Below, one piece after another: positions 21,671 to 25,373 of a stretch of 33,070 bases of DNA (within the stretch, counting starts at the first letter, position 1; every line of letters begins with the position of its first letter). Where the stretch lies: assembly GCA_001304215.1 (NCBI GenBank), contig LJVB01000019.1:1-33070 (forward strand), written 5' to 3'. The notes below the pieces were generated by a model. The model was given only the letters and a program-made list of their open reading frames with translations. It was not told the origin of the DNA and made no database searches. Both the position numbers and the translations under genes were made by a program. This stretch comes from Acidithiobacillales bacterium SM1_46. GTDB lineage: Bacteria > Pseudomonadota > Gammaproteobacteria > Acidiferrobacterales > Sulfurifustaceae.

Positions 21671-21723
21671 AAAAAACCGGTAACACCGCGCACCTGATGA
21701 GGGTTGGGACGGGTGTTACCGGT
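21671..21723 (-). terminator. Rho-independent terminator downstream of the lysine-rich peptide gene
   Basis: A perfect 12-base inverted repeat ACCGGTAACACC/GGTGTTACCGGT (21712-21723 and 21676-21687) with a 24-base loop is followed on the minus strand by six T. It ends a minus-strand transcript coming from the region of the 16-codon gene, about 117 bases past that gene. No other minus-strand gene lies between, so it argues that the small locus is transcribed. Confidence 0.85.
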
Positions 21724-21839
21724 CCGATACGTACAGCCGCGGGGTTTGTCATCCGTTTCGGGTTCTTCGGTGTCCGGTATGGCGGTTTCCCGCTTTGCGG
21801 TCCACGCGTCACACCCCGGATGTTCCCCGCCTAAGCCAC

Positions 21840-21890
21840 TTACTTCTTCTTCTTAGCGGCTTTCTTCTTGGCTTTTTTCTTCGCTGCCAT
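21840..21890 (-). CDS. 16-residue lysine/alanine-rich peptide
   Basis: The minus strand encodes MAAKKKAKKKAAKKKK and then TAA. The start codon is preceded by AAAGGAG with a 6-base spacer, a better ribosome binding site than most genes here, and a strong terminator lies downstream. Ten of sixteen residues are lysine and five are alanine. The composition resembles the tails of histone H1-like bacterial proteins, such as AlgP or Hc1, and could bind nucleic acid. It could instead be a leader peptide that senses lysine supply or translation rate. Nothing identifiable follows it in the same transcript. Function is unknown; the evidence that it is a real gene is the combination of ribosome binding site, start, stop and terminator. 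Confidence 0.6.
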   Translation of the reverse strand: MAAKKKAKKKAAKKKK

Positions 21891-21935
21891 GGTGAGCTCC
21901 TTTGGGTTGTGGGTTAAGGGACTACTACTGCTGAT

Positions 21936-22030
21936 AAGCCGGCTGTAGCCGGCTTGGTACTGCCCGGTTTGCCGCGTTCGCGCCTCTGGCGCACGCAGCC
22001 AAGCAGGAAGGACGGTGCTCCACTGTCCTT
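21936..22030 (-). ncRNA. Cluster of hairpins upstream of the lysine-rich peptide gene
   Basis: Three stem-loops lie within 95 bases: AAGCCGGC/GCCGGCTT with a four-base loop (21936-21955), GCGCC/GGCGC with a three-base loop (21980-21992), and a 10-base stem AAGGACGGTG/CACTGTCCTT with one G-T pair and a three-base loop (22008-22030). If transcribed on the minus strand they would form a structured leader ending about 45 bases before the peptide start codon. They match no RNA family I recognise. Confidence 0.35.
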
Positions 22031-22300
22031 GAGGGTTCTGTCAGGGTGAGGGATGGGGGGTTCGCGCGGGTGATCAGCTGTCGCGGACCAACATGCTTTC
22101 CCGAATAACCCGACCCGGCGGCCTCGCGGTGCCCCCAGGTCTCGTACCGCATGCTAGCTGCTGTGGTACTTCGCAATCGAACCAAAATGACTTTCGGCTC
22201 CGTTGGGTTTCCAGTTCCGCCTCGCTTCCCGGTATCACTCGCCGCGCATTGCGACGAACTCCGTTAACGGGTCGGTGACTACCTTGTCATCGCTACTTCA

Positions 22301-22328
22301 GACTTAGCACAGCATCCTTGTGTGTCAA
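22301..22328 (-). promoter_or_regulatory. Candidate sigma-70 promoter reading toward the lysine-rich peptide gene
   Basis: The minus strand has a perfect TTGACA (22323-22328), then 16 bases, then TAAGTC (22301-22306). The predicted start is near 22294, which would give a leader of about 400 bases before the peptide gene. The -10 match is only partial, so this is tentative. Confidence 0.35.
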
Positions 22329-22447
22329 GACACTAATGCAAAAGCATGCCAATTGCAATACGAGCGGACACCAACGCAACGACTGATCGCGAGTACTGAG
22401 TGAGCTACATTCACGCGTCGATCGCGACCACGATGCATTCGTTGATC

Positions 22448-23122
22448 TCATCCACACTTCGAGTCCGCGCAGTTGAGACAGGTCATGCATCCATCCATCT
22501 TGATGACCGCCTTGGTGTGACATTTCCCGCAGACTTGCGCGTCGGCAGGGAACTCGCCGTTCTGTTCCGGGTTTTCGCGTGACGGATCCTGGCGTGCCTG
22601 CATCTCCGCACGCTTCTCCGCAATAAACTGTTTGCGGTGTTCGTCCAGATCGTCGGTCGGAATGAGTCCGATCATGCGAAGGTGACACTCGATCACATCG
22701 CCGAGATCGGCCACCAGTGATGGCGTATAGCGACCCTTCTTGAAATAGCCCCCGCGCGGATCGAATACCGAGCGCAATTCCTCGACGAGGAAGGTCACGT
22801 CACCGCCTTTGCGGAAGACTGCAGAGAGGACGCGCGTTAGCGCAACCACCCACTGGAAGTGATCCATGCTCTTCGAATTGATAAAGATCTCGAACGGGCG
22901 CCGCTTTTCGTGCGCCGTGCCCGCATTCAGCACGATATCGTTAATCGTGACGTACAACGCGTGCTCGGTGAGCGGCGTTTTTATTTTGTAGGTCGAGCCA
23001 AGCAGAACCTCCGGGCGCTCGAGCTTTTCGTGCATGTGCACGACATTGCTTTCGACCCGCTTGGGCTCCTCGTTCTTGACGACTTCGTAGCCGGTAATCT
23101 TTTCGCTGATCTTGATGGTCAT
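22448..23122 (-). CDS. nrdJb: B12-dependent ribonucleotide reductase, NrdJb subunit
   Basis: The 224-residue product matches the separate C-terminal piece of split class II ribonucleotide reductases (NrdJb of Pseudomonas aeruginosa). It has a TSCPD-type domain (about 60-150, with HFQWVVALTRVLSAVFRKGG) and a cysteine-rich tail containing CGKC, CMTCLNC and a final KCG. That tail is the likely zinc ribbon and the redox pair that re-reduces the active site in NrdJa. The start is the ATG with GGGAGAG upstream; sequence ahead of it in frame is not convincing. It follows nrdJa by 88 bases on the same strand. Confidence 0.88.
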   Translation of the reverse strand: MTIKISEKITGYEVVKNEEPKRVESNVVHMHEKLERPEVLLGSTYKIKTPLTEHALYVTINDIVLNAGTAHEKRRPFEIFINSKSMDHFQWVVALTRVLSAVFRKGGDVTFLVEELRSVFDPRGGYFKKGRYTPSLVADLGDVIECHLRMIGLIPTDDLDEHRKQFIAEKRAEMQARQDPSRENPEQNGEFPADAQVCGKCHTKAVIKMDGCMTCLNCADSKCG

Positions 23123-23210: not shown

Positions 23211-25373
23211 TCAGAACTTGCCGTAATAGCCTTCCTTAAGCGCGTCGTAGAGATTGGCGGCGGTATGCCGCTCGCCGTCGTATTCGATCTCGTCGTTGCC
23301 CTTGACCTCGACCGTCTCGCCATTGTCCAGCGTGAACCGGTAACGCGTGTTTTCCAGATCCTTGTCCTTCACCAGTACGCCCTGGAAGGCCTCCGGGTTG
23401 AATCGGAATGTCGTGCAACCCTTCAGGCCTTTTTCGTAGGCATACATATAAATGTCCTTGAAATCGTCGTAGGGAAAAGTTGTCGGGACATTGGCGGTCT
23501 TGGAAATCGACGAATCCACCCATTTCTGAGCCGCCGCCTGAATATCGACGTGCTGGCGAGGGGAGATGTCATCCGCCGCGACGAAATAGTCCGGTAGGGC
23601 ATGCTTTGGGTCCGCCGCATCGGGTGCGGCCTCGGCATTGATTAGTTCCTTATAAGCTAGCAACTCGTAGGAGTAGACGTCGATCTTCTCCTTGCTCTTC
23701 TTGCCCTCACGGATCACGTTGCGGGCATATTTGTGGGCGAATGACGGCTCGATACCGTTTGAGGCGTTGTTGCCGAGCGACAGAGAGATCGTTCCGGTGG
23801 GCGCGATCGACGTATGATGGCTGAAGCGGGCGCCGTGCTTGGCGATGCGTTCCGTGAGCGCATCGTCAAACTGCTGCATGTACCGGCTGTACCTGGCGAG
23901 CAGGACCTTGCCCTTTACTTGGTCTCCTACCTTGTGGCCGTCGCGACGCATCTCGGGACGTCGGGCCAGCATCTCCTCGGTCACGGTAAACGGTACTTCC
24001 ATGATCGGGGCCGGCCCTTTCTCGACGGCAAGCGCAACACCTTCTTCCCAGCCTACCTCGGCCATCTCGCGCGCGACCGCCTCGGTGAATTCGAGCGACT
24101 CAGGTGACCCATACCTTATCCTCAGCATCGTGAGCGCCGACCCAAGGCCGAGGAACCCCATGCCGTGGCGGCGCTTGTGGTGGATCTCGTGGCGCTGCTG
24201 CTCGAGCGGCAAACCATTGATCTCCACCACGTTATCCAGCATCCGCGTGAAGATCCGCACCACCTCGCGGTAGCGGTCCCAGTCGAAGCGGGCTTCGGGA
24301 GAAAAGGGCTGTTCGACGAATTTCGTGAGGTTCACAGAGCCGAGCAGGCAGGAGCCATACGGGGGAAGCGGTTGCTCTCCGCAAGGATTGGTAGCCCGAA
24401 TATTCTCGCAGAACCAGTTGTTGTTCATCTCGTTGATACGGTCAATCAAGATGAACCCGGGTTCAGCATAGTCATAGGTGGACGTCATGATGAGGTCCCA
24501 CAGCCGCCGCGCCGGGATGGTCTTGTATACCCTGCAGGCAATGCGACCAAGAGAATCCTTCACATAGTTGCTGCTCTCGTATGGCCAGTAGCGCCAGACG
24601 ATCTTGTTGTCGGGATCCTCGTACTCATGCTGGTTGGCCGGGAACACCAGGTCCCAGGCCGCATCATTCTTGACGGCCTGCATGAATTCATCGGTAATCA
24701 GGCAGGAAAGGTTGAACTGCCGCAGCCGGCCGTCCTCGCGCTTGGCGCGGATGAAGTCGGCCACGTCCGGATGAGCGATATCGAAAGTCCCCATCTGGGC
24801 GCCACGCCGTCCCCCGGCCGAGGACACCGTGAAGCACATGGCGTCGAAAATATCCATAAAAGAGAGGGGGCCGGAGGTATAAGCTCCGGCCCCGCTCACA
24901 AACGCCCCTTTGGGGCGCAGGGTAGAGAACTCGTATCCGATGCCGCAGCCGGCCTTAAGGGTTAGGCCGGCCTCATGGACCGAGGTCAGGATGCCATCCA
25001 TCGAGTCCGGAACGATGCGCGACACCGTGCAGTTGATGGTCGAGGTTGCGGGCTTGTGCTCCTGCGCACCCGCGTTCGAGACGATCCGGCCGGCCGGAAT
25101 TGCGCCGTTCTTCAGCGCCCACAGGAAACGGGCAAAACAGGTCTCACGCTTTTCGGGCGTGGCCTCCACATCGGCGAGCGCGCGGGCGATCCGGGCATGC
25201 GTATCGTCAATGCTCAGGTCGACCGGTTGGCTGGTCTTGGTCTTTAAGCGGTACTTCTTGTCCCAGATGTCATAGGACGCAGGCTGGAGGGGAATTTCCC
25301 TGGTACTGGTTTCGCGGACGGCAGGCTGGGTCTTGGGGGCAGCACTCTCTTCCTGGAGCTGAACCGCTTTCAT
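23211..25373 (-). CDS. nrdJa: B12-dependent ribonucleotide reductase, catalytic NrdJa subunit
   Basis: The 720-residue product is a class II (adenosylcobalamin) reductase that makes deoxyribonucleotides with or without oxygen. Visible are the redox cysteine in STINCTVSR (C115), the effector and substrate regions (AGCGIGYEFSTLRPKG, SSAGGRRGAQM), and the radical site NPCGEQPLPPYGSCLLGSVNLT with C331, E333 and the second cysteine C342. Also present is the phosphate-binding segment SIAPTGTISLSLGNNASNGIEP. The C-terminal zinc/redox module is absent and supplied by NrdJb. The ATG has an excellent ribosome binding site (GGAGGAGAGTGA). An NrdR-type box lies about 90 bases upstream. Confidence 0.96.
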   Translation of the reverse strand: MKAVQLQEESAAPKTQPAVRETSTREIPLQPASYDIWDKKYRLKTKTSQPVDLSIDDTHARIARALADVEATPEKRETCFARFLWALKNGAIPAGRIVSNAGAQEHKPATSTINCTVSRIVPDSMDGILTSVHEAGLTLKAGCGIGYEFSTLRPKGAFVSGAGAYTSGPLSFMDIFDAMCFTVSSAGGRRGAQMGTFDIAHPDVADFIRAKREDGRLRQFNLSCLITDEFMQAVKNDAAWDLVFPANQHEYEDPDNKIVWRYWPYESSNYVKDSLGRIACRVYKTIPARRLWDLIMTSTYDYAEPGFILIDRINEMNNNWFCENIRATNPCGEQPLPPYGSCLLGSVNLTKFVEQPFSPEARFDWDRYREVVRIFTRMLDNVVEINGLPLEQQRHEIHHKRRHGMGFLGLGSALTMLRIRYGSPESLEFTEAVAREMAEVGWEEGVALAVEKGPAPIMEVPFTVTEEMLARRPEMRRDGHKVGDQVKGKVLLARYSRYMQQFDDALTERIAKHGARFSHHTSIAPTGTISLSLGNNASNGIEPSFAHKYARNVIREGKKSKEKIDVYSYELLAYKELINAEAAPDAADPKHALPDYFVAADDISPRQHVDIQAAAQKWVDSSISKTANVPTTFPYDDFKDIYMYAYEKGLKGCTTFRFNPEAFQGVLVKDKDLENTRYRFTLDNGETVEVKGNDEIEYDGERHTAANLYDALKEGYYGKF

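Follow-up and report, generated by a model that had tools for sequence, protein, structure and literature searches.

The stretch of DNA analysed here, a 33,070-nucleotide window, carries on its minus strand a gene of only 16 codons that is probably functional and that would represent the shortest form of a histone H1-like lysine-repeat protein, transcribed alone, controlled by a long leader and yielding a polycation that binds polyanions. The compared sequences show selection on the frame, conservation of the ribosome binding site (RBS) and the terminator, a position shared with long H1-like proteins, and a leader that is specific to the lineage.

The micro-gene and selection on its frame

The AAAGGAG site, the ATG and the lysine-rich frame that follows can be read directly from the minus strand (Table 1), where the preliminary description had placed them, and the product contains ten lysines and five alanines among its 16 residues. 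A gene of this size is below the usual limit of gene calling and is missed by normal annotation, and in the list of open reading frames of the window none of at least 30 aa shares its stop codon. Frames with an AGGAG site and an ATG, at least 12 codons and at least 50% lysine were absent from 200 windows (6.6 Mb) simulated with a first-order Markov model of the window's composition, against one in the real window.

Table 1. Positions of the micro-gene and its associated elements in the window
Feature	Position	Strand	Remarks
16-codon gene, product MAAKKKAKKKAAKKKK, stop TAA	21840–21890	minus	ATG at 21890, TAA ends at 21840; 51 nt
Ribosome binding site AAAGGAG, 6 nt 5' of the ATG	21897–21903	minus	AGGAG invariant in all aligned orthologs
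Predicted promoter: TTGACA (22328–22323), 16-nt spacer, extended -10 TGC-TAAGTC (hexamer 22306–22301)	22301–22328	minus	Conserved in the alignment
Intrinsic terminator: 14-bp stem, 24-nt loop, T run	21671–21725	minus	Perfect pairing; conserved in most orthologs
Leader motif TTGGTTCGATTGCGAAG	22169–22185	minus	Near-invariant in f1, f5, f6 and f7
Leader hairpin 1, AAGGACAGTG-gag-CACCGTCCTT, about 110–120 nt before the ATG	22008–22030	minus	Covariation in relatives
GCAGTACC motif (21963–21956) and hairpin 2, AAGCCGGC-taca-GCCGGCTT (21955–21936)	21936–21963	minus	Motif nearly invariant in f1

Twenty genomes were compared within f1, the family of the window and of Sulfuricaulis, and a DNA search detected relatives of the window DNA in most of them. 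The frame and its RBS are found at the same place in 17 of the 20, with 14–21 codons that encode peptides such as MAKKKAKKKAAKKKK, MAAKKKAKKKAPKKK and MAAKKKAKKAKKKAAKKKK. The other three are not counted as true absences, since in at least one of them (G004) the locus is missing or truncated at the end of a contig. Nine f1 genera retain the micro-gene together with its promoter, RBS, frame and terminator, and no frameshift or nonsense allele occurs among the 17 copies.

Fitch counts for the f1 orthologs, made on the tree of the neighbouring TSCPD protein, give 5, 4 and 35 changes at the first, second and third codon positions respectively. The third positions have 2.3 changes per site, which compares with 2.1 and 3.1 in the upstream and downstream flanks, and the first and second positions have about 0.3. 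Gap runs within the frame are multiples of three in all 28 cases, as against 6 of 59 just upstream of the gene, and pairwise codon differences, counted over non-independent pairs, amount to 499 synonymous and 88 non-synonymous. The bias between codon positions and the gap runs in multiples of three indicate that the frame is translated and that purifying selection is acting on it. For a protein gene of 14–21 codons, this evidence of selection is enough for it to be counted as real from sequence alone. The preliminary description had made its proposal depend on conservation of the frame in relatives; the frame is kept and synonymous changes are favoured, and this family conservation, along with the direct reading, bears out a separate micro-gene that has an RBS and a terminator of its own.

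Locus and longer orthologs

The order nrdJ, TSCPD gene, micro-gene and convergent murU is common to families f1, f4, f5, f6 and f7. The TSCPD-domain protein, which has a cysteine-rich C-terminus and is strongly conserved across the order (about 71–82% identity), is encoded in the window at 22448–23119 on the minus strand, directly 3' of nrdJ (23211–25373, minus). A covariance model covering the gene plus its near leader matches 41 of the 57 genomes of the order at a threshold of E <= 0.01, the weakest matches, mostly in f2, being marginal. In a scan of named genomes with the TSCPD alignment, those with the locus belong to the Acidiferrobacterales, namely Sulfuricaulis, ‘Candidatus Muproteobacteria’ and Acidiferrobacterales MAGs.

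The length of the product at the syntenic locus varies widely, from 14–21 aa in f1, 18–26 aa in f7 and 21–30 aa in f5 to 49 aa in one f2 genome and 79–98 aa in f4 and f6. The long f4 and f6 orthologs are plain Lys/Ala repeat proteins, for example MATKKKATKKKAAKRKTAKRK..., and may be described as histone H1-like in composition. Two traits of H1-like proteins extend to the short forms: low complexity dominated by lysine and alanine, which the window peptide has in common with the long orthologs, and change of length by whole in-frame repeat units, seen as 14–98 residues at one syntenic locus. A third, a length of tens to hundreds of residues, is found only in the f2, f4 and f6 orthologs, the window peptide having 16. 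Because a single locus encodes 14–98 residues and its long forms are H1-like, the micro-gene is best understood as lying at the short extreme of an H1-like family of variable length, and the histone-like connection that had been suggested for the peptide is borne out by its synteny with the orthologs of 79–98 residues. Orthology is judged here by position, RBS and leader, and terminator rather than by a sequence score, and low-complexity lysine repeats could be of independent origin. Curated family models gave no Pfam match and one insignificant NCBIfam match (E 0.67) for three long orthologs. A search of f1 with an 89-aa H1-like protein, a low-complexity query that is poorly scored and was run without a positive control, gave no match, which does not count as evidence that f1 lacks other H1-like proteins. 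The class-wide model R1 found mostly unrelated lysine-rich genes, and as it matches by composition its matches are excluded from claims of orthology outside the order.

The direction of the change in length is settled for f5 only. The f5 forms (21–30 aa) are nested among the f6 forms (79–89 aa) in the TSCPD tree, and shortening therefore occurred in f5; the MurU tree does not fix the point at which f2 joins. In a MAG placed immediately outside these families, the corresponding position after the TSCPD gene is occupied by a product of about 155 aa. No TSCPD gene was found in the f2 genomes tested, in which a Lys/Ala-rich protein of roughly 80–120 aa nevertheless adjoins murU (e.g. L228–L238). 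As f2 keeps such a gene at murU without the TSCPD gene, the link with murU may predate that with nrdJ or be the firmer of the two.

Promoter and terminator

Nearly all orthologs in the order are preceded, at the same place and with a constant spacing of 16 nt, by a TTGACA..TGNTA arrangement, 5' of which lies a GTTTGCAATTTTT-like sequence. The arrangement is plausibly an extended -10 promoter, and transcription would then start near 22294. A generic consensus scan did not report this promoter because its -10 hexamer is without the final T. The automatic terminator scan likewise passed over the terminator, as it allows loops of up to 8 nt. The terminator arms, GGACCGGTAACACC (21725–21712) and GGTGTTACCGGTTT (21687–21674), pair with no mismatch and are followed by TTT to 21671. 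In most orthologs the stem and T run stand 48–145 nt past the stop codon, and paired substitutions are seen between genomes, such as TAACACC/GGTGTTA to TAGCATC/GATGCTA.

The preliminary description was correct about the 12-base core of the terminator, ACCGGTAACACC/GGTGTTACCGGT, and about its distance past the stop (around 115 nt). Its statement that nothing else in the gap needs that terminator is incomplete, since the same transcription unit also includes a conserved promoter and around 400 nt of conserved leader upstream. Not recorded there were this promoter, the extended leader, the hairpin 5' of the gene and the differences in length across the order. The predicted transcript has around 620 nt, of which the gene takes up 51 nt, and the promoter, leader and terminator are retained in genomes with a long protein as well.

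The leader

The leader contains a motif with the consensus TTGGATCGATTGCGAAG, from which the window copy differs by one base. Searched as a 17-base pattern, it is confined within the family to this locus and has a single occurrence in the window's genome, against none for the reversed control. Hairpin 1 has in relatives a stem of 11–12 bp and a U-rich tail, thereby resembling an intrinsic terminator, and changes on both sides are seen at 6 of its 11 pairs, with 94.8% of cells paired. In the window copy the stem contains one A-C mismatch and the U tail is weak, which makes a terminator character doubtful there. The sequence of hairpin 2 varies between genomes, and a CC(C/T)(T/C)TAACCACAACC-like stretch lies 5' of the RBS. 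The covariation score of the two helices is higher than in all 500 shuffles and all slid registers, the shuffles being of a kind that leaves relatedness in.

A model of the leader alone matches 38 of the 57 genomes of the order and hits once in the window's genome; in the class sample outside the order it gave weak matches of 23–29 bits and no strong one. Rfam 15 gave no match at the gathering threshold in the window, and at a relaxed threshold only chance-level matches in the window and five relatives. The conserved leader is regarded as a candidate for a new cis-regulatory RNA. Ahead of some other genes, including an HU-like gene, there are weak matches of 24–27 bits that look like a generic resemblance of a hairpin plus RBS. 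In two g10 genomes a gene for an HU-like nucleoid protein is directly 3' of matches of about 25 bits (L223, ~707–830; L224, ~989–1126), which are probably due to chance, though the kind of gene is suggestive.

In three f5 genomes (G042, G044 and G043; L172, L175 and L178) a second lysine-rich gene, of about 67–79 aa, is found elsewhere with a copy of the leader. This copy comprises hairpin 1, the GCAGTACC motif, hairpin 2, CCTCTAACC and the RBS, an arrangement that a duplication of the leader together with a paralog might have produced.

Proposed function and alternative explanations

The micro-gene's own promoter would give rise to an mRNA of around 620 nt with a structured leader of around 400 nt, if the promoter and transcript ends are as predicted. 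The strong RBS would direct translation of a 16-residue polycation with ten lysines, and the intrinsic terminator would end the transcript. By analogy with H1-like tails, the peptide, with a net charge of about +10, is likely to bind DNA, RNA or polyphosphate electrostatically and without sequence specificity. Were binding of this kind, the number of repeats would be free to shrink or grow, and the combination of a labile length with a conserved composition and conserved control regions would fit a function that depends on dose and charge. The long leader suggests that output is regulated. It may tune the amount of peptide, possibly through hairpin 1 acting as a hypothetical attenuator or terminating a short, separate leader RNA. 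A more far-reaching version, in which the leader is a new Acidiferrobacterales RNA element that senses cell state and controls output of the polycationic peptide via hairpin 1, with the f1 unit being a dual-function RNA that carries the smallest selected H1-like peptide, is offered tentatively and is considered unlikely.

The strongest rival to a functional peptide gene is that the main product is the RNA itself, in the form of a regulatory RNA of around 620 nt (around 270 nt if stopped at hairpin 1) with a small coding part, comparable to SgrS/SgrT. A frame of 51 nt within a transcript of around 620 nt leaves about 90% of it non-coding, in a layout conserved across families; the leader motif is unique to the locus, hairpin 1 covaries and is terminator-like, and the leader persists with a protein of down to 14 residues. 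Set against this, purifying selection on the frame is clear, the f4 and f6 unit encodes a full-length H1-like protein, and the presence of the f5 leader before another lysine-rich gene points to a role in cis for genes of this type; the RNA is therefore an unlikely main product, with perhaps a modest chance of being so. Far less probable is a decaying remnant of a histone-like gene that has no present function. The window gene is indeed much shorter than the f2, f4 and f6 orthologs, but nine f1 genera keep the promoter, RBS, frame and terminator, and the codon-position bias, the exclusively in-frame gaps and the lack of any frameshift or nonsense among 17 copies largely refute decay. The earlier suggestion of a remnant, if decay was meant, is thus wrong for a frame under purifying selection.

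Little credence can be given to a leader peptide that stalls ribosomes, as the preliminary description suggested, or senses lysine, and so regulates a gene downstream. The product is short and lysine-rich and has a strong RBS, but it is followed by the terminator and then by murU, which is convergent in the window as it is in relatives, so that there is no same-strand gene 3' of the micro-gene to serve as a target, and elsewhere the locus encodes proteins of 79–98 aa. Gene order rules this reading out, unless the peptide acts in trans. It is equally improbable that the frame arose by chance in the 3' end of the nrdJ-TSCPD transcript, to which the terminator would then belong. The TSCPD gene is on the same strand and ends around 560 nt upstream with no intervening terminator noted, but a conserved promoter separates it from the micro-gene, no comparable frame arose in the 6.6 Mb of simulation, and f2 genomes that lack the TSCPD gene keep a related gene beside murU. 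The codon-position and gap evidence for selection refutes a chance frame.

Comparison with known systems

H1-like lysine-repeat proteins are already known, and the window peptide is far shorter than those described. The selected form of 14–21 residues and its leader were not found in the family and RNA databases or the literature searched, and in that literature neither the repeat strings nor a small protein from Acidiferrobacterales turned up. The locus provides a natural length series of 14 to around 100 residues at one place and with one leader, which would allow a test of how minimal an H1-like tail can be and still act on the nucleoid or on polyphosphate.

Coxiella ScvA is a basic peptide of around 30 residues that is thought to bind DNA. 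As generally described, it is similar in being a very small basic bacterial peptide, but it is roughly twice as long and differs in sequence and lineage. SgrS/SgrT is a dual-function RNA, in which a regulatory RNA contains a very small frame. The locus described here resembles it in having a long regulatory-looking RNA, a very small frame and its own terminator; unlike SgrS/SgrT, it has longer protein genes at the same place in relatives, and there is no Rfam match.

AlgP of Pseudomonas aeruginosa has H1-like C-terminal repeats, and the repeat peptides bind DNA in vitro; the protein also associates with polyphosphate granules (PMC9239181). It has in common with the present family its low-complexity Lys/Ala-rich repeats and their variable number. 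However, AlgP has around 350 aa, an N-terminal helical domain and KPAA repeats, whereas the locus here encodes no other domain, has KKKA/AKKK spacing and in f1, f5 and f7 reaches only 14–30 residues. Hc2 (HctB) of Chlamydia and a similar Bordetella protein vary in length through in-frame gain or loss of lysine-rich repeats (PMC2848022). Lysine-rich repeats and in-frame variation are thus shared with both, although Hc2 has 165–237 aa in Chlamydia and the repeat units differ.

An element upstream of the promoter

A GTTTGCA(A)TTTT-like element is situated 5' of the promoter at 22332–22360 of the window and is also present upstream of orthologs. Similar TTGCA stretches occur 5' of lysine-rich genes in other orders (L061, L063 and L085), and in f7 the element forms the palindrome GTTTGCAATTTTTGCAAAC. 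It is possible that it represents a shared operator.
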